A stretch of 64,000 nt of DNA, from assembly GCF_003850045.1 (NCBI RefSeq), contig NZ_RQJX01000011.1:1-64000 (forward strand), read 5' to 3'. Position 1 is the stretch's first letter; each line of letters opens with the position of its first letter. Positions 33,235 to 46,216 of the stretch are shown here, one piece after another. Source of the DNA: Aeromicrobium camelliae (GTDB lineage: Bacteria; Actinomycetota; Actinomycetes; Propionibacteriales; Nocardioidaceae). The position numbers were made by a program, and so were the translations under genes. The notes under the pieces are model-generated. The model was not told the DNA's origin. It saw only the letters and a list, made by a program, of their open reading frames with translations, and did not search any database.

Positions 33235-34113
33235 ATGACGCGCACGATGCACTTCGAATCGGTGGCCGACGTGAAGTCGAAGCTGGCCGATGTCGGCTAC
33301 CTCGCCTCCGACGCCGTCGCGACGACGGTCTTCCTCGCCAGTGAGCTCGGCAAGCCGCTGCTCGTCGAGGGACCTGCCGGCGTCGGCAAGACGGAACTCT
33401 CCCGGGCCGTCGCGGCCGCGTGTGGCGCGGAGCTCGTGCGCCTGCAGTGCTACGAGGGCGTCGACGAGGCGCGGGCGCTGTACGAGTGGAATCACGCCAA
33501 GCAGCTGCTGCGCATCAGCGCCGCCCGCGGCGAGGAGACCTGGGACGAGGCCAGGTCCGATGTCTTCAGCGAGGAGTTCCTCCTTCCCCGCCCCCTCCTG
33601 ACCGCGATCCGCAACGAGGGTCCCACCGTGCTGCTGATCGACGAGACCGACAAGGCGGACGTGGAGATCGAGGGGCTACTGCTGGAGGTCCTCGGGGACT
33701 TCCAGGTGACGGTCCCCGAACTCGGCACCATCACCGCGACGCAGCGGCCGTTCGTGGTGCTGACGTCGAACGCCACGCGCGAGCTGAGCGAGGCGCTGCG
33801 GCGGCGGTGTCTGTTCCTGCACATCGACTTCCCCTCACCCGAGCTCGAGCGCGACATCGTCGCGCTGAAGGTCCCGGATCTCGACTCAGCACTCGGCGAT
33901 TCGGTCGTGCGGGTGGTCAGCGCACTGCGATCGGCCGGTCTGCGCAAGGCGCCCTCCGTCGCCGAGACGCTGGACTGGGCGCGCACGCTGGTGGCGCTCG
34001 GCGCGTCGGTGCTCACCGACGAGGTCGTCGAGGAGAGCCTCGGCGTGGTCCTCAAGCATCAGGACGACATCGACAAGGCACGCGCGACACTGAATCTCAG
34101 CGAGTTGGTATGA
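33235..34113 (+). CDS. MoxR-type AAA+ ATPase
   Basis: The 292-residue ATPase has Walker A GPAGVGKTELSRA, Walker B LLIDETDKAD, sensor 1 LTSNATRE and the arginine finger region LRRRCLFLHIDFP. MoxR proteins act as chaperone-like remodellers with a VWA-domain partner. That partner is encoded next, with a 4-bp ATGA overlap. In related operons with CoxE-like proteins they mature metal enzymes such as carbon monoxide dehydrogenase (CoxD/CoxE), but no cox genes are seen here. Confidence 0.92.
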   Translation: MTRTMHFESVADVKSKLADVGYLASDAVATTVFLASELGKPLLVEGPAGVGKTELSRAVAAACGAELVRLQCYEGVDEARALYEWNHAKQLLRISAARGEETWDEARSDVFSEEFLLPRPLLTAIRNEGPTVLLIDETDKADVEIEGLLLEVLGDFQVTVPELGTITATQRPFVVLTSNATRELSEALRRRCLFLHIDFPSPELERDIVALKVPDLDSALGDSVVRVVSALRSAGLRKAPSVAETLDWARTLVALGASVLTDEVVEESLGVVLKHQDDIDKARATLNLSELV

Positions 34114-35486
34114 CCACGCAGGTCGCCGAACGGCTGGTCGAGTTCGTCGAGGCGCTACGCCTCAAGGGGATCAACGCCGGCCCGAGCGAGACCATCGACG
34201 CCGCCGCTGCGGTGCAGGTGCTGGGGTTCGACGATCGCGACGTCCTGCGCGAAGGCCTCGCGGCGGCACTCGTGCGCCGGGACGGACAGCGCGACGTGTT
34301 CGATATGACCTTCGACGTCTTCTTCCCCGCCGGTATCGGCACCCCGACCTCGGCGGAGGCAGCCGACGGTGACCTGGACACCGAACAGCTGCGCGCACTC
34401 CTGGCCATGGCGCTCGCCGACAACGACGGCCGAGCGCTGGCGCAGGTCGCTGAGGTGGCCGTCGACGCCCTCGGACCGGTCGGTCAGCCGGGTACGGGTA
34501 CACACGGCTGGTCGGCGTACCAGACGCTCGAACGACTGCGGCCGCAGACCGTCGTCGCCCAGGCACTCGCGATGCGCGGTGGCGGATCCGGAGGCGGACA
34601 GGGTCACTCCGGCCAGTTCACCGACCGGCTCGAACGTGAGGAGATCCGACGGAGCGTCGCCCGGTTCCGGGATCTCGTCGCTGCCGAGGCGCGACGGCGC
34701 ACTGCGGAGGTTCGCGGCCGTCAGATCGTCGCACGGCACGTCGTCACCCAGAGCACGGACCGCGTCGACTTCCTCAGCGCCAACGCCCACCAACTGTCGG
34801 AGCTCCGGCGGACGGTGCAACCCCTCGCCCGCAAGCTCGCGACCCGGCTCGCCGCCCGCCGGCGACGTCGTCGCCGCGGCCAGATCGACATCCGGCGGAC
34901 GTTGCGCAGCGCCATGAGCACGGGCGGCGTCCCGGTCAAACCGGTGTATGCGGCGCCGCGTCCGTCGCGCCCCGAACTCGTGCTGCTGTGCGACGTGTCC
35001 GGGTCGGTCGCCGGCTTCTCGCAGTTCACGATGCTGCTGGTGAAGGCGCTGAGCGACCAGTTCAGCAAGATCCGGGTGTTCGCGTTCGTCAACGCGATGG
35101 ATGAGGTCAGCTCGTTGGTCAAGGACGCCGACGGCGACCTCATCAGCCGGATTCAGTCAGATGCCCGCATCACGAAATGGCACACGAGCAGCGACTATGG
35201 CGAGGCGTTCGGCGACTTCGTGGAGGACCACCTCGACGCGGTCGGACCACGGACGGCGGTCATCGTGCTCGGCGACGCGCGCAACAACAACCAGCACCCG
35301 CGCTTCGAGGCGCTGCGGCGGATCGCGGAGCGTTCTCGGCGCACCTACTGGCTGAACCCCGAGCACGGCTCACGCTGGGGCCTCGGTGACTCCGAGGCGC
35401 TCGCCTACGCCGAGATCGTGCCGATGTACGAGTGCTGCAACGTCGAGCAGCTCAGCAGTTTTGTGGGACGCATCCTGCCGGTGTGA
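34110..35486 (+). CDS. VWA domain protein, CoxE-like
   Basis: The ATG at 34110 overlaps the moxR stop and gives 458 residues. The N-terminal half is helical and charged; the C-terminal half is a von Willebrand A domain with an intact MIDAS motif (LLCDVSGSVAGFS, D-x-S-x-S). A basic patch ([18 protein letters not shown]) separates the halves. It should work with the MoxR ATPase as a metal-dependent adaptor. The much longer frame that begins inside moxR is a shadow. The target protein is unknown. Confidence 0.9.
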   Translation: MTTQVAERLVEFVEALRLKGINAGPSETIDAAAAVQVLGFDDRDVLREGLAAALVRRDGQRDVFDMTFDVFFPAGIGTPTSAEAADGDLDTEQLRALLAMALADNDGRALAQVAEVAVDALGPVGQPGTGTHGWSAYQTLERLRPQTVVAQALAMRGGGSGGGQGHSGQFTDRLEREEIRRSVARFRDLVAAEARRRTAEVRGRQIVARHVVTQSTDRVDFLSANAHQLSELRRTVQPLARKLATRLAARRRRRRRGQIDIRRTLRSAMSTGGVPVKPVYAAPRPSRPELVLLCDVSGSVAGFSQFTMLLVKALSDQFSKIRVFAFVNAMDEVSSLVKDADGDLISRIQSDARITKWHTSSDYGEAFGDFVEDHLDAVGPRTAVIVLGDARNNNQHPRFEALRRIAERSRRTYWLNPEHGSRWGLGDSEALAYAEIVPMYECCNVEQLSSFVGRILPV

Positions 35487-35489
35487 GGC

Positions 35490-36578
35490 TCAGGGCTTGA
35501 GCCCGTGCTCGGCCATGATCGGCAGCGGATCGACCGGGTCGGCGTTCTTCCCCGGACGCACCTCGAGATGCAAGTGCGGTCCGGTGACGTTGCCGGTAGC
35601 ACCGACGGCGCCGATCCGATCCCCCTTGCGCACCATCTGTCCGGCCTCGACATCGATGCGTGACTGGTGTGCGTACCAGAGCTCGGTGCCATCGGCGAGC
35701 CGCAGGACCGTGCGGTTGCCGTAGGCCCCGGCGTAACTCGTGGACACCACGACCGCGTCCTGCATGGCGACCAGCGGAGTCCCAGTGGGCGCGGAGAGAT
35801 CGATGCCGGTGTGCCGGCCGCTCGACCAGAGACTGCCCGCCTGGCCGAAACGCGCCGACAGCCGGTACTTCGACAGGGGCATGACCCACTCGTTCGCGCG
35901 ACGCGCCTCCTCGGCAGCGCGCGCCTCCTCCTCCGCCTTGAGCTCGGCGACGCGCTGCTCCACGAGTGCGGCGATCCGCGCCTGTTCGGCGGCGAACGCC
36001 TCCTGCTGAGCTGCGACGTCGGGAAGCATCGGCGGCAACACGGCCGACGCCAGGCTGGCCAGGCCCGGTGCAGCCGGTTCCTCGGCCTGCGACTGCGCCT
36101 GCAATTGGGCCGCGAGCGGACTCGTGTCGCTGGTCAGGGGCGTGGGATCGGGCGCTGCGACCGAACCCGCGGGAGATTCGTGCGGCGCTTCCACGGGCGT
36201 GTCCGGCGGTGCCTCCGCCGGATCGGCGGCAGACGCGTCGGCGGATCGCTGCTCGGGCGCCTGCGTGGAGGACGTGGGGGGCTCCGGAGCCGCCGGCTCG
36301 AGACTGACCGACTCCGATCCGTCGAGGGCCGGGTCGAGCGTCCGGCGCGCGTCAGGGGAAGCAGCGGTGAACTCATCGGTGACGAGCGCCGTGTCCTGAG
36401 GTCCGGCCTGACGCGCGTCGCCGGTGAGAGCGACGCCGCCTCCCGCCACTGCGAGGCTCAAGACGCCGGCCAGAAGCGGCGACACCACTGGGGCGCGGCG
36501 ACGCTTGCGACGGCGGGATCCACCGGGGACGCGGGTCGACGACGGACTCGTCGATCGGTGCGTACCAGCAGAACTCAT
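35490..36578 (-). CDS. secreted M23 family metallopeptidase
   Basis: The start is set at the ATG at 36578, giving 362 residues. A basic N-terminus and one membrane helix (VVSPLLAGVLSLAVAGGGVAL) lead to a long Pro/Ala/Glu-rich linker and a coiled-coil stretch (QQEAFAAEQARIAALVEQ). The C-terminal LytM domain has the zinc ligands in GRHTGIDLSAPTG and HLHLE. Such enzymes cut peptidoglycan cross-links or activate amidases. The catalytic ligands are complete, so it may be an active hydrolase. Confidence 0.88.
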   Translation of the reverse strand: MSSAGTHRSTSPSSTRVPGGSRRRKRRRAPVVSPLLAGVLSLAVAGGGVALTGDARQAGPQDTALVTDEFTAASPDARRTLDPALDGSESVSLEPAAPEPPTSSTQAPEQRSADASAADPAEAPPDTPVEAPHESPAGSVAAPDPTPLTSDTSPLAAQLQAQSQAEEPAAPGLASLASAVLPPMLPDVAAQQEAFAAEQARIAALVEQRVAELKAEEEARAAEEARRANEWVMPLSKYRLSARFGQAGSLWSSGRHTGIDLSAPTGTPLVAMQDAVVVSTSYAGAYGNRTVLRLADGTELWYAHQSRIDVEAGQMVRKGDRIGAVGATGNVTGPHLHLEVRPGKNADPVDPLPIMAEHGLKP

Positions 36579-36959: not shown

Positions 36960-37233
36960 TTCCCGCCACGGCCGTGAGCATCCCGGCGTATTCGTCAAGC
37001 GCCTCCACGTAGGCGGGCAGCTTGCCTGCATCGTGGATGCGCAGCACCGCGTCGACCTGATGCCGAGCGAAGGCGCAGACACCCTCGGCCTGCTGCTCAT
37101 GCTCGGGTGCGTCGGGATGCTCGAGGCACACCATGAGGCCCACGCCGGCGGTGAGGTACATCTCGCAGCCGAGCTTCTTCATCATCACCAGGGACATCTC
37201 GAATGCCAGCCGTTCGCGATCGAGGTCGCGCAT
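36952..37233 (-). CDS. hypothetical protein, 93 residues
   Basis: I do not recognise this protein. It is soluble and largely helical, with three cysteines (GCEMYL, MVCLEH, GVCAF) and many His/Met residues (EMSLVMMKKLGCEMY). A GAGGGAG site precedes the ATG at 37233, and codon use is like that of its neighbours, so it is probably a real gene. The cysteine/histidine content might allow metal binding, but no known motif is formed. Confidence 0.6.
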   Translation of the reverse strand: MRDLDRERLAFEMSLVMMKKLGCEMYLTAGVGLMVCLEHPDAPEHEQQAEGVCAFARHQVDAVLRIHDAGKLPAYVEALDEYAGMLTAVAGTA

Positions 37234-37483
37234 GTCACCACTCCCTCACACCTTGCAGGCACGCGTTCGGCGCCGGCTTTTGTCTCTGCTCAAACCATCG
37301 CACTCGTGACGCGGCGAATCAATGGCGCCGACCCACCTTCCGGAGTCAGGCACCAGGCGGTCGGGTACCGGTGCAGTCGTTCGGCCTGCAATGCCGGTCA
37401 CAACCTTCGCGCGACGGTTCCCTCACCCTACACAGACGGATGCGCGACGCGGGGAGCGGGGCGACGAGCTCGACTGACCTGGT
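37234..37483. other. 250-bp non-coding gap, no feature recognised
   Basis: It lies between the start of the 93-residue gene and the end of the signal peptidase gene, both on the minus strand. It should hold the promoter of the former and the terminator of the latter. I see no tRNA, riboswitch or strong hairpin in it. Confidence 0.5.
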
Positions 37484-38455
37484 TCAGGCGCACCGCACAC
37501 CCAGGCCGAGGAGCACAGCCGTCGTCCGCACGCGCGTCGTGGTCCCGGCGGCCTCCCACGTGGGCGCCGCGCGCAGACGAGCATGGATCACCACGTCATA
37601 CGTCGTCACGCCGAGGCCGAGGTCGAGTACGGAGGTTCGGATCTCCAGCACGCCCGAGCCGCCAGGCCCCGGCTGAACCGATTCGGAACGCACCACTCGC
37701 CCGGAGGACGTGTGGTGCATCTCCCAGCGGTAGTCGTAGCGCGGATCCGCATGCGTCCAGCTCAGGCGCGCATACTCGCCGATGCCGAGCAGTCCCCCCT
37801 CGTTGTCGCAGGTGGGCTGAGGCTGGGGGACGACGCGGTGCGCCCCCAGTTCGCCTGTGGTGACGGTGCCCGCGTCGTCGAAGATCGCCCACGCCTGCGA
37901 CGCGGGAAGCACCACCGGAAGTACGAGCGCGGCGCCGACGAGCACGGGAGCGACACCACGTCGGCGAGCACGGCGAGCATGTGCAGGAGTGCGCCGTGGC
38001 AACGCCACCGCGAGCCAGCACAGCGCGACGAGGCCGACGGCGACCGATCGGCCTGGCGTGCTGTCGACGAACGCAGCCACCCGCCCGACTCCTGGGAGCA
38101 CCCACGCCACGCGTTCGGCCGTGCCCAGCGTGTACGCCTCAGGGTCGGTCACAGCGTTCGCATCACCGCGCAGTCGAACGAGCCGCTCGGCACCGTCGCC
38201 GGACAGCTCCACGATGCGGTGCGTGACGCGGACGCCGGCCTCGTCGACGACGCTCACGACGTCGCCGACTTCGAGGTCCGCCGCCTCGACGGAGCGGGTC
38301 AGCAGCAGGTCGCCGGCGGCGATCTCCGGCGCCATGGAATCGGACTGCACGACCAACGGGCGGCTTCCGGTCATCCAGAGTGCGACGACGGCCAGCAGGC
38401 ACAGGCCCCCGAGAAGCGCTCCGGCGTTGAGGACGAGGAGGCGCAGCCGACTCAC
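37484..38455 (-). CDS. ER/SipW-type signal peptidase I fused to a SipW-substrate-like domain
   Basis: The 323-residue protein starts with a membrane helix and an S26B peptidase: catalytic Ser40 in VVQSDSMAPEIAAGD and His79 in RVTHRIVEL, the Ser/His pair of ER and SipW enzymes instead of Ser/Lys. After a second membrane helix (about 135-152) comes a third hydrophobic stretch (170-186) followed by QAWAIFDDAGTVTTGELG (187-204). This resembles the cleavage region of the SipW-type preproteins encoded upstream. Residues 205-323 form a beta-rich, Fn3/camelysin-like tail. It is the last gene of a five-gene cluster and overlaps its neighbour by 4 bp. Confidence 0.82.
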   Translation of the reverse strand: MSRLRLLVLNAGALLGGLCLLAVVALWMTGSRPLVVQSDSMAPEIAAGDLLLTRSVEAADLEVGDVVSVVDEAGVRVTHRIVELSGDGAERLVRLRGDANAVTDPEAYTLGTAERVAWVLPGVGRVAAFVDSTPGRSVAVGLVALCWLAVALPRRTPAHARRARRRGVAPVLVGAALVLPVVLPASQAWAIFDDAGTVTTGELGAHRVVPQPQPTCDNEGGLLGIGEYARLSWTHADPRYDYRWEMHHTSSGRVVRSESVQPGPGGSGVLEIRTSVLDLGLGVTTYDVVIHARLRAAPTWEAAGTTTRVRTTAVLLGLGVRCA

Positions 38456-39042
38456 GGGGCACCTCGCTGGACGCCGTTGACCACGAACGACGCCGTCGCC
38501 GTCGCGCCCTGCAGCGAGGACGTGGCCGATCGGTCCAAGGTCACCGTGATGCAGAGGGTCTCACTCGCACCCGCGGCCAGCGGCCGTCGCGCGGGGACGA
38601 CCGGGGTGGGCGCGCTGAAGGTGAGCGTGCCGCCCGTGCAGGTGCCGGTCCGATTGCCGTTCGTGGAGGACCCGGAGTTGGTGGCGGTGCCACCGGCGAC
38701 GACACTCCACCGCAGCCCGGGTCCGAGCGCTCCGTTCGTGTGGGCGACGGCGGTGTAGTCCAGCGGGACGGTGCCCGCGTTCCCGACCGTGATGGCACGA
38801 GCGAAGCTCTCGCCCGGCACGAGGTCACCGACGGTGAACGCCGTGTCAGCGGTCGTGCCGCCAGGTCCGGCCAGCTGTCCGTTGAGCGTGAGGTCGAGGC
38901 GCCCCGCAGCCAGCTGCCCGGTGGCCACCGTCGCCTGATCGGTCCAGTACGCCATGGTGCCGCTGACTCCGAGCCCGAGAAGGAGGCCGAGGCTCAGCAC
39001 GGCGCGCAGCAGGCCCGACCGGCGTGCTCGGTGCTTGCTCAT
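38452..39042 (-). CDS. secreted protein with SipW-type alternate signal peptide (TasA/camelysin-like)
   Basis: The ATG at 39042 has an AGGAG site and gives 196 residues. The N-terminus has basic residues, a hydrophobic stretch and VSGTMAYWTDQATVATG, then AAGRLDLTLNG: the signature of the SipW-dependent signal peptide class (A-Y-W-T-D followed by T/V-x-x-G-x-x-A-G-x-L-x-L). The mature part is beta-rich and Ser/Thr/Gly-rich (LVPGESFARAITVGNAGTVPLDY), like TasA or camelysin. It probably forms or joins a surface fibre. Cysteines occur only in GTCTGG and ETLCIT. Confidence 0.82.
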   Translation of the reverse strand: MSKHRARRSGLLRAVLSLGLLLGLGVSGTMAYWTDQATVATGQLAAGRLDLTLNGQLAGPGGTTADTAFTVGDLVPGESFARAITVGNAGTVPLDYTAVAHTNGALGPGLRWSVVAGGTATNSGSSTNGNRTGTCTGGTLTFSAPTPVVPARRPLAAGASETLCITVTLDRSATSSLQGATATASFVVNGVQRGAP

Positions 39043-39647
39043 GCCACTCTCCTTCGCGACGCACGTCGCACCGTTGTTCCGACCAACGTCACCACCAGGC
39101 CGATCAGGATCGCGGCGGGCCCGAGCATCGAGCCCGTCGCCGGAAGGCCGTCCGGCGCCTGAACCGCACCGTCCTGCTGCCCGCTCATCCCCACCAGCAG
39201 CGGAAGATCGAGCGTCGAGCGCTGCGTGCTGTTGCCGGCTGTCGCCTCGAACGTCGCGCGCAGCGTCACCGTGGCCGCGGCGCCCGCAGCGATGTCGGCG
39301 TCGGGCACGACAGCACGCGCGCCATCGGTCGGCAGTCGACGCCACTCCCCCGTGTCGACGCGGACGTCCAGCCGCACGTCCTCGTCGGCGAGCAGTGCAT
39401 CCGGGTCTCCGGCGTCCTCCAGCGCGACCCAGACGGCGGATGCACTGGTGTCGCCGTCGTTGCGGACCGAAAGCACTGCGCTCCGGTCCTCACCCGGAAC
39501 CCATCGGCGATCACCGTGGAAGAGTGCGTCCAACGGCACCGCGGCGGTGTACCGCTCTCCGGGCACCAGTCGCACCTCCGGCGCCGTCACGCCCGCAGCC
39601 GGCTGTGCGATCAGGACGAGCGCCGCGATCATCGCCAGCGACCTCAT
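39039..39647 (-). CDS. LPXTG-anchored secreted protein of the SipW-type cluster
   Basis: From the ATG at 39647 this encodes 202 residues. A short signal peptide (MRSLAMIAALVLIAQPAAGVTA) is followed by a beta-rich domain with VLSVRNDGDTSASAVWVAL. The C-terminus is a complete sortase signal: LPATG at 168-172, a hydrophobic helix and the basic tail RRASRRRVA. It should be linked to peptidoglycan by a sortase, none of which is encoded in the window. It could tether the fibre proteins made from the neighbouring genes. Both ends overlap adjacent genes by 4 bp (ATGA). Confidence 0.82.
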   Translation of the reverse strand: MRSLAMIAALVLIAQPAAGVTAPEVRLVPGERYTAAVPLDALFHGDRRWVPGEDRSAVLSVRNDGDTSASAVWVALEDAGDPDALLADEDVRLDVRVDTGEWRRLPTDGARAVVPDADIAAGAAATVTLRATFEATAGNSTQRSTLDLPLLVGMSGQQDGAVQAPDGLPATGSMLGPAAILIGLVVTLVGTTVRRASRRRVA

Positions 39648-40201
39648 GTCGCCAGCTTTCGCCCACGGAGCCGGTCGCGTGCCGCGCCAGCCAGCATGAC
39701 CGCGGCATACCCGAACAGCGCCGACGCGACGCCCGCGACGGCAAGCCCTCGCTGGGCCGGCTCGAGCCACGTGTGGACGTAGCCGAGGTAGGGCACGGAG
39801 TACCACACCTCTCCGCGGATCTGGACCGGGCGGACGGGCAGCGGATCGGCTGCCGGGTTCGCGTCGCCCTGCGTGATGAACTCGCGTTCGCCGTCGAGTT
39901 GCTGGTGGACGGCCACGACCCGGTGCGTCGCGGTCTGCGGTTCGCCCGAGCGCAACTGGTAGGTCACCACGTCTCCCACACCGAGGGTCGCCGGATCCAC
40001 GTCTCGAGCGACCACGAGCGCGCCGACGCCGTAGGTCGGCGTCATGGAGCCGCTCAGCACCGCGTAAGGCGTGGCGCCAGCCAGCCGCGGCACGGCCACG
40101 GCGACCACGATCGCTGCTGTCACTGCGACGATGACGCCCCACGCAGCGGCGTGGCCGACCAAGCGGGCCGCGCTCCGGCGCCGGGGCCGGACGTGACGCA
40201 T
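39644..40201 (-). CDS. SipW-type signal peptidase I
   Basis: This 185-residue S26B peptidase has an N-terminal membrane helix (about 18-38), catalytic Ser52 in YAVLSGSMTPTYGVG, a DVVTYQL box D segment, His93 in TATHRVVAV, and a second membrane helix near the C-terminus. It is the minimal form of the enzyme, next to the two alternate-signal proteins that are its likely substrates. It lies one base after the 184-residue preprotein gene, in the same transcript. Confidence 0.87.
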   Translation of the reverse strand: MRHVRPRRRSAARLVGHAAAWGVIVAVTAAIVVAVAVPRLAGATPYAVLSGSMTPTYGVGALVVARDVDPATLGVGDVVTYQLRSGEPQTATHRVVAVHQQLDGEREFITQGDANPAADPLPVRPVQIRGEVWYSVPYLGYVHTWLEPAQRGLAVAGVASALFGYAAVMLAGAARDRLRGRKLAT

Positions 40202-40202
40202 C

Positions 40203-40757
40203 TCAGGGGTTGGGGTCGGCCTGCGTGAGCGTCACCGTCAGCGAGTCCAGCGTCGCGGTGATGCCCTGCATGTCGTTCGTGTTGACCGCCGTCGTGTCAC
40301 CGAAGGGGATCGCGACCTCGAAGGTGGCCGACAACACTTGGCCGTCGTTCACGTCGGTGATGGTGGCGCCGTCGGCCAGCGCGGCGCCGTCGAGCGTGTA
40401 GCTCGCGTCGACGTCGGCCGTGAAGGTCGTTCCCGCCGGGGTGCTGGTGAACGTCAGCGTGTCCGGTGCGTCGACCGTCGCCGCCAGGTTGTCACCCTCG
40501 GCGCCGACCGTGAAACTGCAGGTGGCCGTCACGACGTCGCCGGGCACGAACGCCGTCACCGGGCTCCCGGCCGAGGCGGACCCGTCGGCGTACAGCCAGC
40601 CGCTGCAGTCATCGTTCGAGGTCAGCGTGAGGCTGCCCGCCGTGATCGATCCTCCGTCGACATCGGCCTCGGCAGTCCAGTAGGCCAGCGTGCCGGCGCC
40701 GCCGATGAGCAGCGCGCCCGCCGCGGCGGCCATGAGGCCTTTACCTGTCTTGTTCAT
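40203..40757 (-). CDS. alternate signal-mediated exported protein (RER_14450-like family)
   Basis: The 184-residue preprotein starts MNKTGKGLMAAAAGALLIGG and continues AGTLAYWTAEADVDGG...ITAGSLTL, the pattern of the actinobacterial alternate signal family related to SipW substrates. The mature part is acidic, Thr-rich and predicted all-beta, with one cysteine pair (DDCSGW and ATCSF) and no other cysteines. It is the first and probably most expressed gene of the cluster, and a candidate major fibre or matrix subunit. It has its own promoter, a leader hairpin and a good AAAGGGA site. Confidence 0.83.
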   Translation of the reverse strand: MNKTGKGLMAAAAGALLIGGAGTLAYWTAEADVDGGSITAGSLTLTSNDDCSGWLYADGSASAGSPVTAFVPGDVVTATCSFTVGAEGDNLAATVDAPDTLTFTSTPAGTTFTADVDASYTLDGAALADGATITDVNDGQVLSATFEVAIPFGDTTAVNTNDMQGITATLDSLTVTLTQADPNP

Positions 40758-40770
40758 GTGTCCCTTTCCG

Positions 40771-40787
40771 TTCCATCCACGATGGAA
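40771..40787 (-). promoter_or_regulatory. leader hairpin/operator of the SipW-type cluster
   Basis: TTCCATC-GTG-GATGGAA is a perfect 7-bp inverted repeat between the putative -10 and the ribosome-binding site of the first cluster gene. It could be an operator or an mRNA hairpin. Confidence 0.5.
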
Positions 40788-40796
40788 AACCCAGGC

Positions 40797-40802
40797 ATTG
40801 TA
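40797..40802 (-). promoter_or_regulatory. putative -10 element of the SipW-type cluster (TACAAT)
   Basis: TACAAT matches five of six bases of the TATAAT consensus and lies about 40 bp before the first ATG. No good -35 is seen at 16-18 bp (TTCGGG at best), so an activator or another sigma factor may help. Confidence 0.5.
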
Positions 40803-41004
40803 ACCTGAATCGAGAGAGGGCCCGAAGGGGTGAATTCAACCCGCAGACAGTTATTTCTCGCTGAAACCAAAGGAACAAAGGGGCGCGACAGTGCCGGACG
40901 GAGCGCCGACGACTTCACCCGCAAGTTCACCCTCGCAGCGCCTGAACACGCTGACCGGCGCACCCTCGCTCGCCCCGAGCGTGAAGAGCCAGCTGAACGA
41001 CGAA

Positions 41005-41032
41005 GACCGTCCGACCCGAAGGCCGGACGGTC
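41005..41032 (-). terminator. intrinsic-type terminator of tRNA-Leu with UUCG tetraloop
   Basis: On the minus strand the stem GACCGTCCG/CGGACGGTC continues through a G-T pair and CC/GG to a TTCG loop, about 12 bp in all. It starts 10 bp after the tRNA 3' end and is followed by TCTTCG. Confidence 0.8.
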
Positions 41033-41042
41033 TCATGTGCTG

Positions 41043-41128
41043 TGTCCGAGGGGGGACTTGAACCCCCATGCCCGTAACCGGGCACTAGCACCTCAAGCTA
41101 GCGCGTCTACCTATTCCGCCACCCGGAC
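41043..41128 (-). tRNA. tRNA-Leu(GAG)
   Basis: The 86-nt class II tRNA has a 7-bp acceptor stem starting GTCCGGG and ending CTCGGAC plus discriminator A. The anticodon stem-loop is GCTAGC-TTGAGGT-GCTAGT, so the anticodon is GAG (Leu, CUC codons). A long variable arm (GCCCGGTTACGGGC) and the T-loop GGTTCAAGTCC follow. CCA is not encoded. A putative -10 (TAGAGT) is at 41165-41170. Confidence 0.96.
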
Positions 41129-41211
41129 AGTGGGCCCCGCGAGGAACCCTTGGTGCGATCCACCACTCTAGCAAACCGCTCCCAGGGCTCCACACGGGGT
41201 GGGGGTCGAAC

Positions 41212-43980
41212 TCAGCGGCGCGTGACCGTGACGTCGACGGGCACTGTCGTCGCAGGGAATTGACCGTCTCCGACATAACTCAGCGACAGGCGATGCGTGC
41301 CGGGTCCCAGCACCAGCGGCAGCACGGACGCGCGTGCCTCACCGTGGTGCAACCGCCCGATGCCCAGCGGAATCCAGCCTGCCCGCACGATGACCGTTCC
41401 CGACGCCTCGGGGTGGGCCGAGACGTCGATCTTCGGGCCTCGGGGCCAGCGCACCGGCTCCGCGGTGCCGCGCAGGTCGAGTTGCGGCTCGGCCTCCTCG
41501 GCGGCGATACCGATGATCGCCGGATTGTGGTCGCTGGCCCGGTACGGCGTCCGGTCGTACAGCTGGGTGACGTTCTGGTTGTACCGGCTGTACTCGCGGG
41601 CGATGGACTCCTCGGCGTTGATCGCCCAGATGTCCGAACCTGTCACCTGCTCGAAGGCCGACGGGGAGGCGAAGACGTGATCGAGCGAACCCATCTGACC
41701 GTCGAACTGGTAGGTGGGTGCGTCGGTGAACTGCGCCGGCACGTTCACGTACCCAGCCTCCGCGAAGACCTGGACAGGGTCCTCCTGGCTGTAGGCGTTG
41801 AAGTCTCCGGTGAGGAACACCCGGTCGGTGTCCGCGCGGTCCTGCTCGGACTGGGCGAACGCCACGAGCGCCGCGGCCTGGCGGACTCGCGAGGCGTTCG
41901 ACGCCCCCTGGCCGTCGCCCTGGTCGGCGTCCTCACCCTCACCGGAGCCCTTGGACTTGAAGTGGTTGACGATGACCAGGAAGTCGTCCTGCTCGCCGCT
42001 GCCCACGGGCCGGAACTCCTGCGACAACGGATCGCGCGCGTTGTCGAACGCCGGATCGTCGAGGATGACCGACTCCCCCACCGGTGCCACCGCGTCGGGG
42101 CGGTAGATGAACGCCGTGCGGATGACGTCCTCCGCCTCGGGGACCGCCGCCGGGGAGGCGACCGCCGCCCACTCCTCGCGTCCGGCGTGCTCGTTCAGCG
42201 CGGCGACCAGCGCCCGCAAGGCGGTGTCCCGGTCGATGCCGAAGGCGGCCGAATTCTCGATCTCCTCCAACGAGACCACGTCAGCTCCGAGCTGCGAGAT
42301 GGCCGCGACGATCTTGTCCTGCTGCCGCTGCAGGTTCTCGGCGTCAGCGGCGCCACGCGGCCCCTCGTTGCTGCAGCGATTGACGGTGATCGGATCACCC
42401 GCCCGATCCGTGTAGTACGTGCACGAGCCGAGGCCGTTCGCCTCGTAGTCCTCACCGACCGTGGTGAAGTAGTTGAGCACGTTGAAGGTGGCGAGGCGGA
42501 CGTCTCCGCCGACGTCCGCCGGGCGCTCGGGACGCGTGTCGTCCTCGATCCGCAGCGGCTCAGCGTCCCCGGCCTGCACGTGTGCGGTCGGCTGGAGCTT
42601 CCACGTGTCGTTGCGGAAATCGAGGATCATCGGCTCCTCGATCTGCACGGCCGCACCGACGCGCACCTCGTTCTCGGGCGTCAGCCACGGCACGGGGATC
42701 TCACGGTTCGCCCCGTTGAGGAAGTTGATGGTGGCAGCGTCGTCGACCGTCACCGCTCGACTGGCGTTCTCGGCCACGACGGCGTCGTACTCCGGCGTGC
42801 GCGGTCGAGCGACATCCGTCGGCTGGCGCAGCGGTTCCTCCCCGGCCGCAAGACCGATCTCGCCGTACTGGTGCGTGGTGTAGTTGTTGGTGACCGTGAA
42901 GTCGTTCGCCGGGGCCAGCAGCATGCCTTCGAGTGACTCGCGTTCAGCCTCACTGAGCGGGAACTCGACGACGGCCGGCTTGACCGCCGCGACCGGTTCG
43001 TCGAGGACCGTCCAGGCGCCCGCATCCGGGACGATCTGGGTGAGGCCGTAGTACTCCCCCACCCGCCCGGTCAGCTCGAGGTGATCACCCTCGTGGACGG
43101 ACCGGGCGAGTTCGGCGGAGTACACGAACACGCCTTGAGACGCCTCGTGGACCTCCAGGTCCACATCGCCGCCGCTTCCGGGCGTCTGCAGGTAGATCCC
43201 GTTGAAGCCACCGGTCGGGTAGGCCGCGGTCACGACACCGCGCGTGGTCACTCGGTGGTTCAGCAGGGGGCTCTCGTCGCCTGTCCCCTGAATGTCCGCG
43301 ATGTCGACGACCTCGGGCTCCTCCGGTTCCGGCGTCTCCCCGCCGTCGCACGCCACGCCGCACGCTTCTGGCGTGGGTGACGCCGCGGTGAAGTCGGCAC
43401 GGTTGTCGTCGGTGTCGGTGAGGGCGTCGTCGCGCGTCAGCGCCGTGGTCCTCGAGTAGCCCGCGGCCTGTCCCGCGCCCTCGTACGTGCTCGATGACCC
43501 GTACCCGAGGAGATCGACGAGTTGCGGGTGCGACAGCACGCCGTCCCGGTCGCCGGACAGCGGCTGCGTGGTGCGCGCCAGCGCGAGTGTTCCGCCGGCG
43601 CTCCCGGAGAACGCGATGCCGCTCGTGACGTCGGGTTCGGGCAGCGAGGCGCCCGCGGTGCCGTTGCTGTTGCCTCCGACGAGCAGGCGGCCGCCAGCAG
43701 GGATGGTGTGATCACCGAGCGGGATCACCCCGCTGAAGGCGTTGGAGCTGGTCGCGGAGCGATACTGCACCGACCACCCGGCGACGCTGATGGCCTCGTC
43801 GGTGGGGTTGGCGATCTCCACGAACTTGTGCGAGAACGCGGCGCCCGCACTCCCGCCGTTCAGATAGGCCTCGGCGATGACGAGGTCATCACCCTCGGGG
43901 GCCGCCCCGGCGGCCGTCGGCGCGACGAGAAGGCCGGCCCCGAGCGCGAGCGCGCCGGCGATGCGGGTCAGGGTCTTCAT
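41212..43980 (-). CDS. ExeM/NucH-like secreted endonuclease with lamin-tail and Ig-like domains
   Basis: The 922-residue protein has a signal peptide (residues 1-27, ending AAGA-AP), a lamin-tail domain (about 30-150: VIAEAYLNGGSAG, FVEIANPTDEAISVAGW), an OB-fold region and a DNase I-like endonuclease/exonuclease/phosphatase domain (about 490-850) with ATFNVLNYF, SLEEIENSAA, VFLTGDFNAY and YRASDHNPAI. A C-terminal Ig-like domain (about 860-922) follows. It probably degrades extracellular DNA. It is 13 bp downstream of the 5'-nucleotidase gene in the same operon. Confidence 0.93.
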   Translation of the reverse strand: MKTLTRIAGALALGAGLLVAPTAAGAAPEGDDLVIAEAYLNGGSAGAAFSHKFVEIANPTDEAISVAGWSVQYRSATSSNAFSGVIPLGDHTIPAGGRLLVGGNSNGTAGASLPEPDVTSGIAFSGSAGGTLALARTTQPLSGDRDGVLSHPQLVDLLGYGSSSTYEGAGQAAGYSRTTALTRDDALTDTDDNRADFTAASPTPEACGVACDGGETPEPEEPEVVDIADIQGTGDESPLLNHRVTTRGVVTAAYPTGGFNGIYLQTPGSGGDVDLEVHEASQGVFVYSAELARSVHEGDHLELTGRVGEYYGLTQIVPDAGAWTVLDEPVAAVKPAVVEFPLSEAERESLEGMLLAPANDFTVTNNYTTHQYGEIGLAAGEEPLRQPTDVARPRTPEYDAVVAENASRAVTVDDAATINFLNGANREIPVPWLTPENEVRVGAAVQIEEPMILDFRNDTWKLQPTAHVQAGDAEPLRIEDDTRPERPADVGGDVRLATFNVLNYFTTVGEDYEANGLGSCTYYTDRAGDPITVNRCSNEGPRGAADAENLQRQQDKIVAAISQLGADVVSLEEIENSAAFGIDRDTALRALVAALNEHAGREEWAAVASPAAVPEAEDVIRTAFIYRPDAVAPVGESVILDDPAFDNARDPLSQEFRPVGSGEQDDFLVIVNHFKSKGSGEGEDADQGDGQGASNASRVRQAAALVAFAQSEQDRADTDRVFLTGDFNAYSQEDPVQVFAEAGYVNVPAQFTDAPTYQFDGQMGSLDHVFASPSAFEQVTGSDIWAINAEESIAREYSRYNQNVTQLYDRTPYRASDHNPAIIGIAAEEAEPQLDLRGTAEPVRWPRGPKIDVSAHPEASGTVIVRAGWIPLGIGRLHHGEARASVLPLVLGPGTHRLSLSYVGDGQFPATTVPVDVTVTRR

Positions 43981-43993
43981 TCCAGGTCCCCGC

Positions 43994-46216
43994 TTATCGC
44001 TTGATCTCGACGGTGACCGGCACGGAGCTGCGCTCGTACCGACGGTCGCCCCAGTGGGTCACCGTCAGTTCGTGCGTGCCCGGGCGGAGAACGAAGGGAA
44101 GGGTCAGGGCGGTGGCGCGACCGTTCTTGAGGTAACCGGCGCCGACCGGCAGACCGTTCTTCGAGATCGTGATGACACCCCGCGCGTCGCGTGCCGCCGT
44201 CACCTGAATGCGAACCGGAGCCGGGTACTGCGACGGCTTGGCCGTCGCCTGGAGTCCGGCGACCGGCTGCTCCGGTTCTGTCACGGTGACGCTGGGTGTG
44301 GCGACCGTCGTCCCTGTCGGCTGCGCGGTGGCACGGAATCGCACCTCGCCGGAAAGGCCGGCAGGAAGCGTGGCCTCCACTCGGGCGGCTCCGCCGCTCA
44401 CCGGGAAGGAGCCGAGCTCGACCGGGTCGCCGCCTTCTGCCACCGCCTCGACCGTGACGTCGGTGTTGGCAGGGCTGCCCAGCGAGGTGAGGTCGAGCCG
44501 CGGCAGCGTGAACGACACCGTGTCGCCGGCCGCGTACTCGGGCTGCAGCCCCTGCACCTCGACCGAACGGCGGGCGAAGTCGGGGCTGATCGGCTGGTTG
44601 TTCTCGAGGTAGTCGATCCACGCTTCGTAGTCGACGAGACCAGTGTCGGTGTTCGTACCCTCGGCGAAGGCGTGGAAGTTGTCGCCACCCTGCGCGAGGA
44701 AGGAGAACGTCGCGACGCGGTAGGTGCGCTGCGGGTCGAGCGGTTCGCCGTCGATCCACACCCCGGTGATCCGGTCCCCCTCGGGACGGGTCGAGTCGAA
44801 CGTGTACGACACGTTGTCCGAGACGCCGAGCTGGAGGTAGGCGCGGCTGGGCACGTTGCCCGCGGCGTCGCGCTGCCACTGCTGTTCGAAGATGCGCTTC
44901 AGCGTGTCGCCGGTGACCGCGACGGAGCTGACGTTGTTGACGAACGGGAGGACGGCGTTCGCCTCCGCGTAGGTGATCTCACCGGGCTGTTCCTGCCCCG
45001 TCGGCGCGTAGAGCAGGTCGGCGCGCAGGCCACCGGGGTTGACGAGGCCGAGATCGGCGCCGGCCTGGGTCTGCGCCACGCGCGACAGCAGGGCATCGGC
45101 CACCACTCCGCCGAGAGTCGACTCGGCGCCACGGTCCTCGGTCGTCCCGTTGAACGCGCGGGTGATGTCCGCGGTCTGGGTGCCCTTGACCTCGCGCCCG
45201 ATGATGTCGGCGTGCTCGAGCGCCGCCTGAACGATCGCTTGCACCTCGCCCACGCGGGGGAACTGGTCGACGAGGGTGGCGTCGTCGGTCGTGGTCCGCG
45301 GGACGTTCCGCGCCGTGGAGGCCGTCACGTCACCGGTCGCCTCGTCGACGGTCAACGTGACCTCGCCGATGTTCGCGCCGTAACTGCCGGTCTGGACGAT
45401 GGGCCGCGTCTCGCCCGGAGAGCCGGGGACCGGTGCGTCCCACGCGTACTCCTGATGCGTGTGGCCGGTGAAGATCGCGTCGACCTCCGGCGAGATGCCC
45501 TCGGCGATCTCCCGGAAGGCCGGGCTGCTGGCCACGGCCTCCTCGTAGGTGGCTCCGCCGTCGGGAGCGCCTTCGTGGATCTGTGCCACGATGACGTCGG
45601 GTGGTGCTGGCAGGGCCTGCAGTTCTTCAACGGTCTCGTTGACCGCGGCGGTCGGGTCCGCGAAGGTCAGTCCTTCGACGCCTCCGGGACTCACCAGGGA
45701 CGGAGTCTCCTCGGTCACGGCACCGACGACCGCGACCTCCATGCCGGCGGCCTCGACGATCTCGTAGGCCGGCAGGATCGGTTCGCCGTCGGGACCGAGC
45801 ACGTTGGCGGCGAGGTACGGGAAGTCGGCTGCGTCGCCGACACGCGTGACCAGATCCTCGGCGCCCCGGTCGAACTCGTGATTGCCGACGGCGCTCGCGT
45901 CGAGTTCGAGCGCGTTGAGCACGTCGAGCGTCGGGATGTCGTCGGCGACGGCGGACGCGAACAGCGAGGCGCCGATGTTGTCGCCGTTGGAGAGGACGAC
46001 GGTGCTCTCCTCACCGCCTTCGGCACGCAACTGCTCGATCGTCCCTGCGACCTTGACGGTGTTCGCGTCGATCCGGCCGTGGAAGTCGTTGACGCTCAGC
46101 AGCGTCAGTGTCACATCCTGCGCGTGTGCCGGTGCCGCGGCCAGGGCCGTGAGCGATCCGGTGGCGAGGAGCGAGCCCAGCGAGGCCGTGAGGACACGGC
46201 GCGGCACAGCAACCAT
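43994..46216 (-). CDS. secreted 5'-nucleotidase/UDP-sugar hydrolase family protein
   Basis: The 740-residue protein has a signal peptide (to about AHA-QD, residue 32), a metallophosphatase domain (LLSVNDFHGRID, VVLSNGDNIGAS, AVGNHEFDRG, IFTGHTHQEY), a C-terminal nucleotide-binding domain with NPGGLRADL and GGDNFHAFAEG, and an Ig-like domain at about 655-740. It releases phosphate and nucleosides from nucleotides outside the cell. With the nuclease downstream it would convert DNA to nucleosides. A PHO-box-like repeat upstream suggests control by phosphate. Confidence 0.94.
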   Translation of the reverse strand: MVAVPRRVLTASLGSLLATGSLTALAAAPAHAQDVTLTLLSVNDFHGRIDANTVKVAGTIEQLRAEGGEESTVVLSNGDNIGASLFASAVADDIPTLDVLNALELDASAVGNHEFDRGAEDLVTRVGDAADFPYLAANVLGPDGEPILPAYEIVEAAGMEVAVVGAVTEETPSLVSPGGVEGLTFADPTAAVNETVEELQALPAPPDVIVAQIHEGAPDGGATYEEAVASSPAFREIAEGISPEVDAIFTGHTHQEYAWDAPVPGSPGETRPIVQTGSYGANIGEVTLTVDEATGDVTASTARNVPRTTTDDATLVDQFPRVGEVQAIVQAALEHADIIGREVKGTQTADITRAFNGTTEDRGAESTLGGVVADALLSRVAQTQAGADLGLVNPGGLRADLLYAPTGQEQPGEITYAEANAVLPFVNNVSSVAVTGDTLKRIFEQQWQRDAAGNVPSRAYLQLGVSDNVSYTFDSTRPEGDRITGVWIDGEPLDPQRTYRVATFSFLAQGGDNFHAFAEGTNTDTGLVDYEAWIDYLENNQPISPDFARRSVEVQGLQPEYAAGDTVSFTLPRLDLTSLGSPANTDVTVEAVAEGGDPVELGSFPVSGGAARVEATLPAGLSGEVRFRATAQPTGTTVATPSVTVTEPEQPVAGLQATAKPSQYPAPVRIQVTAARDARGVITISKNGLPVGAGYLKNGRATALTLPFVLRPGTHELTVTHWGDRRYERSSVPVTVEIKR

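Follow-up and report, generated by a model that had tools for sequence, protein, structure and literature searches.

Introduction

In Bacillus subtilis, the tapA-sipW-tasA operon sets a dedicated S26B-type signal peptidase beside TasA-like preproteins with an aromatic residue at position P2′ of the cleavage site, an arrangement shared by the five-gene unit (genes A to E) that we describe here from the soil-type actinobacterium Aeromicrobium camelliae. The unit lies on a stretch of 64,000 nucleotides (contig NZ_RQJX01000011.1, positions 1 to 64,000), hereafter the window. Mature TasA begins at residue 28. In TasA fibres each subunit passes residues 28-38 into its neighbour, and the first strand may come from TapA (PMC9674648); a second report describes TapA as donating its N-terminus, its own Ig fold being complete (PMC10151520).

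Two other systems are comparable. In the B. cereus sipW-tasA/calY system with CapP, a single peptidase goes with a pair of TasA-like subunits and with an assembly protein, part of which is associated with the wall; the accessible portion of its account calls it sortase-independent and describes neither a peptidase-substrate fusion nor an LPXTG-bearing TasA-like protein (PMC13082335). For Clostridium perfringens sipW-bsaABCRSD, the available part of the report states that SipW is needed for BsaA secretion and polymers and that the nearby sortase gene is dispensable, and it describes no peptidase-substrate fusion (PMC7395162). Compared with the B. subtilis operon, the Aeromicrobium unit joins its peptidase to an initiator-like domain, has another peptidase that is free and includes an LPXTG protein that is TasA-like. 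We lean towards the view that its products build a TasA-type fibre attached to the cell wall, with the C-terminal domain of protein E (Ec) as initiator.

Family assignments and dedicated export

Genes A to E span 40757-37484 on the minus strand and follow each other in the order of transcription, with a gap of 1 base pair (bp) between A and B and overlaps of 4 bp at B/C, C/D and D/E; the earlier note, made from the letters of this DNA, had described such a coupled cluster, and all five genes were recovered in place. Protein A is a member of NCBIfam TIGR04089 (exp_by_SipW_III) by the curated cut-off, with 146.9 bits (cut-off 60) over model positions 1-179 of 179; this model covers A only and its name gives no function. 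A and D scored 34.5 and 34.2 bits with the SipW-type signal model TIGR04088 (cut-off 19), which bears out the note's two secreted preproteins with SipW-type signals. D also exceeds the gathering cut-off of the TasA/camelysin family PF12389 (30.6 vs 22.5), whereas A stays under it (11.6) and is related to D by profile comparison only. B and E, with 86.8 and 55.7 bits against TIGR02228 (cut-off 51.85), are both S26B/archaeal-type signal peptidases, with the catalytic Ser/His and GDxN motifs of that class; neither reaches the Bacillus SipW equivalog NF046067 (62.7 and 41.8 bits; cut-off 190). The note's pair of S26B signal peptidases thus holds as to family, but E is more than a peptidase, having a further C-terminal part behind an internal SipW-like site.

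In the organism's own genome, the cut-off for SipW signals is exceeded by A and D alone (one further place, at E-value 0.15, fails) and that for S26B peptidases by B and E alone; a third, weaker S26B-like place is a stretch of 62 amino acids within an ordinary signal peptidase I (TIGR02227, 61.4 bits vs cut-off 47). The catalytic Ser40, His79 and Asp98 are invariant in 24 of 24 E sequences. A looser S26B active-site pattern fits 40/40 fused E and 62 of the 72 rows filed as B, and most of the ten that do not fit miss, by eye, only the pattern's Pro or one exact letter.

A signal peptidase that carries a SipW-type preprotein

E is built of a peptidase, a transmembrane stretch, a basic linker, a hydrophobic stretch (recognized by eye), the site QAWA↓IFDDAG and a domain of 133 residues. 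At two loci (L041 and L044) the E homologue is a protein of 164 amino acids that consists of just the final domain behind a SipW-like signal of its own. We aligned the site across 40 profile-selected fused forms and 7 free forms, setting aside three open reading frames with other domain mixes. P1 is Ala and P2′ is aromatic in all fused (40/40) and all free (7/7) forms, aromatic residues amounting to 6.5% of the fused proteins, and P4′ is Asp in 37/40 and 6/7, respectively. P2′ is likewise aromatic in 67/67 A sequences (one partial row of 68 dropped) and in 65/67 D sequences (four rows longer than 260 amino acids, of 71, dropped). An aromatic P2′ makes a poor site for Escherichia coli LepB, and that of TasA is cut by SipW, according to a published study (PMC10269814).

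Because the Ec profile had included the site, every peptidase open reading frame with a tail of at least 90 amino acids was taken as a second set, which held 111 open reading frames and 91 distinct tails. The motif A-x-[FWY]-x-[DN] falls within the first 130 residues of 76/91 tails. On reading, five of the other 15 belong to a distinct peptidase family and two are B-C fusions; a further tail looks C-type, three are of low complexity and one has a linker that extends past the tested stretch. In the remaining three, P4′ is Ser (two tails) or P2′ is Pro (one tail). The 28 residues ahead of the hydrophobic stretch have a positive net charge in 35/40 fused E, as would suit a signal that enters from the cytoplasmic side.

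A quick tree was built from 219 distinct peptidase domains. In it, all 79 fused rows (71 identified by profile and 8 by the site motif) and 11 unfused rows form one set with support 96, and 123 B rows form the other (support 89, not starred). This split indicates that B and E are old paralogues and that the fusion is old. The fused/unfused label requires 6 changes on the tree, 2 of them forced by starred branches, and a few rows are probably later losses of the fusion or of unsure placement.

Other peptidase arrangements were seen alongside. At seven loci (L037, L042, L046, L048, L051, L052 and L054), fused E is followed by an extra peptidase gene that lacks a tip domain and that the tree places as E-type. 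In other genomes of the class, the fusion partner of an S26B peptidase is a C-type protein that ends in a LAxTG-like motif (L074:4568-6199 and L088:8618-9805), the internal signal of these B-C fusions being classical-looking and non-aromatic; L181 and L182 have a C-type-looking tail on the peptidase that is similar by eye. The B-C fusions support a putative physical association of peptidases of this class with the end pieces of the fibre. A long branch (2.41) of the tree holds five S26B-like proteins (L072:10035, L107:13540, L120:13778, L142:5596 and L157:12945), found near these loci in Nocardioidaceae/Propionibacteriales, that share an extra tail ending in a tryptophan-rich hydrophobic stretch.

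Conservation of the unit

TIGR04089 was found in 28/49 genomes of the genus, our own included, and one stretch was taken from each of the 27 others; loci were annotated with profiles grown from the window's proteins and trained on these loci together with 30 from outside the genus. The order A-B-C-D is kept in 28/28 same-genus loci, so the arrangement is not due to chance. E comes next as the fusion in 26/28, one of which has an additional D in between, while the other 2/28 have a free Ec gene. At least two A genes occur in 8/28 loci, mostly as tandem modules; at the tandem loci L046, L051 and L052 the first module shows no C.

Across the class, TIGR04089 occurs in 39/394 genomes (33 over the cut-off), of which 9 belong to the same genus and all 30 others were taken. 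In these 30 loci, A adjoins B in 16 and C is present in 13; the order A-B-C-D and the fused E each occur in 7, and free Ec in 5. The co-occurrence in actinobacteria that the earlier note had proposed to look for was found, for A-B-C-D, at every same-genus locus and at some of those beyond the genus. A third set of 79 named loci, the best of 130 confirmed, consists mostly of Nocardioides and Aeromicrobium and in part repeats genomes of the other sets; the order A-B-C-D stands in 53 of them and C in 67, with E fused in 51 and Ec free in 10. Other families show gene orders of the A-D-B-C type. The nearest named relative among the matches listed is Aeromicrobium phragmitis (Nocardioidaceae), with an A protein 94% identical, in a collection that may not include the record of the window itself.

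Between the window and locus L045, nonsynonymous divergence is lower than synonymous divergence (dN/dS pairs) for all five genes: A 0.029/0.367, B 0.083/0.555, C 0.271/0.676, D 0.067/0.736 and E 0.171/0.776. In the phylum, E as a single-sequence query, which divergent tips escape, matched 75/396 genomes and had both halves covered in our own genome only; among seven further matches that were read (L178-L184), none has a SipW-type internal site. One same-genus genome without a TIGR04089 match (G006) contains an E-like match at C1:720815-721411 that covers query residues 9-198, is interrupted by a single in-frame TGA and may be a decayed locus.

Predicted donor strands, grooves and wall anchor

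A, D and C resemble one another in profile comparisons, C aligning to A only from residue 14 of A. The D profile reaches the fibre proteins AbpX and TasA weakly, ranked under an unrelated first match; the A and C profiles found nothing relevant among solved structures. The predicted model of C has TasA as its best match and aligns to the TasA fibre from residue 44; C is predicted to be a TasA-like β-sandwich, seemingly without an N-terminal donor strand. The distance from the predicted cut to PG[D/E] has a median of 29 in C (range -7 to 41, measurable in 29/46), compared with 46 and 44, and is thus 15-17 residues shorter.

The Ec profile matches D over residues 1-18 only (probability 64%, E-value 6e-5), and Ec positions 5-18 are somewhat better conserved than the rest (2.10 vs 1.76 bits). 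On the basis of the late start of C on A and TasA, its shorter distance to PG[D/E] and the D-Ec match, the parts seem to be donor-only (Ec), donor plus groove (A and D) and groove-only (C) in these alignments and models. The rest of Ec gives weak FN3 matches: its profile matched 53 PDB sequences with E-values up to 1, mostly fibronectin and monobody chains (best 0.003), and TapA was not among them; Pfam found no domain in 36 Ec family members. Cys26 and Cys132 are invariant in 36/36 Ec.

Ec is the least conserved part, with a mean pairwise identity of 23% vs 35% for A, 36% for D and 33% for C in sets chosen alike or nearly so; the value for the E peptidase part, from an unthinned set, is 48%. 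The length past the cut ranges from 106 to 470 amino acids (47 rows), extra Ig-like domains were found in 2/6 E scanned and a lectin-like LamG domain in 1/7 E-type proteins scanned (E-value 8.7e-21). This variability and these added domains fit an exposed adhesive tip.

The signal peptide of C looks classical rather than SipW-type (by eye). After its LPATG come, also by eye, a hydrophobic stretch and then a basic end, as a wall-anchored protein would have it, but the Pfam anchor model PF00746 scores 10.9 against a cut-off of 20; the LPATG that the earlier note had named was found, and the profile falls short. Among same-genus C, 25/32 have LPxTG and 30/32 any LxxTG. Pfam found the LPXTG anchor in 7/32 C family members, plus one other single match. 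The genome has one sortase domain, on another contig, whose best family is the class E sortase (147.1 vs cut-off 160).

Proposed assembly and alternative explanations

From the genes and their order, conservation, internal site and profile and fold similarities we infer cleavage, a fibre, its polarity and order of assembly, and its anchoring. A, D and Ec would be exported by their SipW-type signals and cut by B, by E's own peptidase or by both, each cut freeing an N-terminal strand to act as donor. Ec, with a donor strand and no groove domain, would give the first strand as TapA does in B. subtilis, a putative functional parallel in which a donor N-terminus sits on a complete β domain, and its variable body would lie at the fibre tip as an adhesin. 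A and D would form and extend the shaft. C, with a groove and no donor strand, would accept the last strand and stop growth; the one class-E-like sortase encoded elsewhere in the genome would attach it to peptidoglycan. Through the fusion, peptidase and initiator would be made together at the membrane.

Several observations weaken the case for such a wall-fixed fibre started by Ec. TIGR04088 gives the internal signal of E no score (no row at E-values up to 1), and the 18-residue match between D and Ec is a weak link. The predicted A model aligns to the TasA fibre from residue 28 with a weak fold match, and the C model aligns to TasA crystal chains from residue 39, where the chains may lack earlier residues. 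LPxTG is present in only 29/46 C homologues and any LxxTG in 37/46. As to the comparison of mature proteins with the TasA fold that the earlier note had suggested, the C model has TasA as its best match and the A model matches it weakly; the note's dedicated surface-fibre or matrix assembly system is supported in part, by the conserved unit and the TasA-like profile and fold matches, the fibre itself being a prediction.

The unit could instead be an ordinary SipW/TasA-type matrix operon in which E stays uncut in the membrane and its ectodomain does no more than recruit substrates or tether the fibre. The first part of E is indeed a membrane peptidase, the internal signal is unscored and TapA colocalizes with the membrane in one study (PMC10151520), but the internal site recurs in every profile-selected fused E and most distinct tails, and free Ec genes bear the same kind of signal; we consider an uncut E unlikely. 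More improbable still, in our estimate, is that the secreted proteins do not polymerize and are separate surface or matrix proteins with a common export route. The fibre is a prediction and A matches TasA weakly, which would suit this explanation, whereas the mutual likeness of the A, D and C profiles, the C model and the reach of the D profile, faint as it is, speak for a fibre. The Pfam label Peptidase_M73, with D over the PF12389 cut-off, would make A and D camelysin-type metallopeptidases; HExxH occurs in 0/36 A-type and 0/36 D-type mature sequences and the window's A contains no His, and we rejected this reading as very improbable.

Gene coordinates and neighbourhood

Table 1. Features of the five-gene unit, in positions of the window
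Feature	Position	Strand	Description
Gene A	40203-40757	-	184 amino acids (aa); SipW-signal secreted protein, TIGR04089; proposed shaft subunit (donor strand + groove)
Mature part of A (predicted)	40206-40682	-	Signal is residues 1-25; begins YWTAEA
Gene B	39644-40201	-	185 aa; free S26B (SipW-type) signal peptidase
Gene C	39039-39647	-	202 aa; LPATG protein with classical-looking signal peptide; proposed wall-anchored base
LPATG of C	39132-39146	-	Residues 168-172; then hydrophobic stretch and basic tail
Gene D	38452-39042	-	196 aa; SipW-signal secreted protein, PF12389/TasA-like; proposed second shaft subunit
Mature part of D (predicted)	38455-38949	-	Begins YWTDQA
Gene E	37484-38455	-	323 aa; S26B signal peptidase fused to SipW-type preprotein
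E peptidase part	38006-38455	-	Residues 1-150; Ser40, His79, Asp98
E internal SipW-like signal	37886-37960	-	About residues 166-190, basic stretch ahead; predicted cut after Ala190 (QAWA↓IFDD)
E domain Ec	37487-37885	-	133 aa, proposed to be released; donor-strand-like N-terminus, then weakly FN3-like domain; proposed initiator/tip

A tRNA-Leu lies upstream of the unit at 41042-41128, and a promoter and terminator scan of 37200-41200 found none. Upstream of the tRNA, 41212-46216 (minus strand) encodes an ExeM/NucH-family extracellular endonuclease (596.9 bits vs cut-off 300) and a 5′-nucleotidase-like protein whose matches are all under their cut-offs, perhaps a pair for scavenging extracellular DNA and nucleotides. 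Downstream, 35490-36374 (minus strand) encodes a secreted M23-type murein peptidase-like protein (13/13 NCBIfam matches under cut-off), and 33235-35486 (plus strand) encodes what we take to be a MoxR-type ATPase followed by a VWA-domain protein. A plasmid- or phage-borne origin of the system was considered and rejected: D had no plasmid match, and E matched 11 plasmid records, none covering 80%, and no phage record.

Discussion

Gram-positive sortase pili and usher pili follow a logic of tip, shaft and base, in which a wall-anchored base ends growth. In contrast to these, subunits of the Aeromicrobium fibre would be joined by donor strands, without sortase cross-links, an usher or a periplasmic chaperone. 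Carried further, our analysis raises the possibility, which we put forward tentatively and with some doubt, that actinobacteria have a complete three-part donor-strand pilus, with a donor-only tip, a donor-plus-groove shaft and a groove-only, wall-anchored base. It would be started by a polyprotein peptidase that carries the initiator as its own internal substrate, one cut making the donor strand and starting the fibre at the peptidase.

SipW with a TasA-like fibre is already known as a kind of system. A literature search of incomplete coverage listed no natural SipW-substrate fusion and no account of this actinobacterial unit among its matches; as far as that search shows, three things are new, namely the fusion of a peptidase to an initiator, an LPXTG protein that is TasA-like and the division into donor and groove parts. 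In Bacillus, where the role of TapA was worked out only recently, it is in our judgement still open what starts TasA-type fibres and what keeps them on the cell. If our reading is true, the unit would provide a clean, testable model for the initiation and wall anchoring of TasA-type fibres, and E, at once signal peptidase and preprotein, would be unusual in its arrangement.
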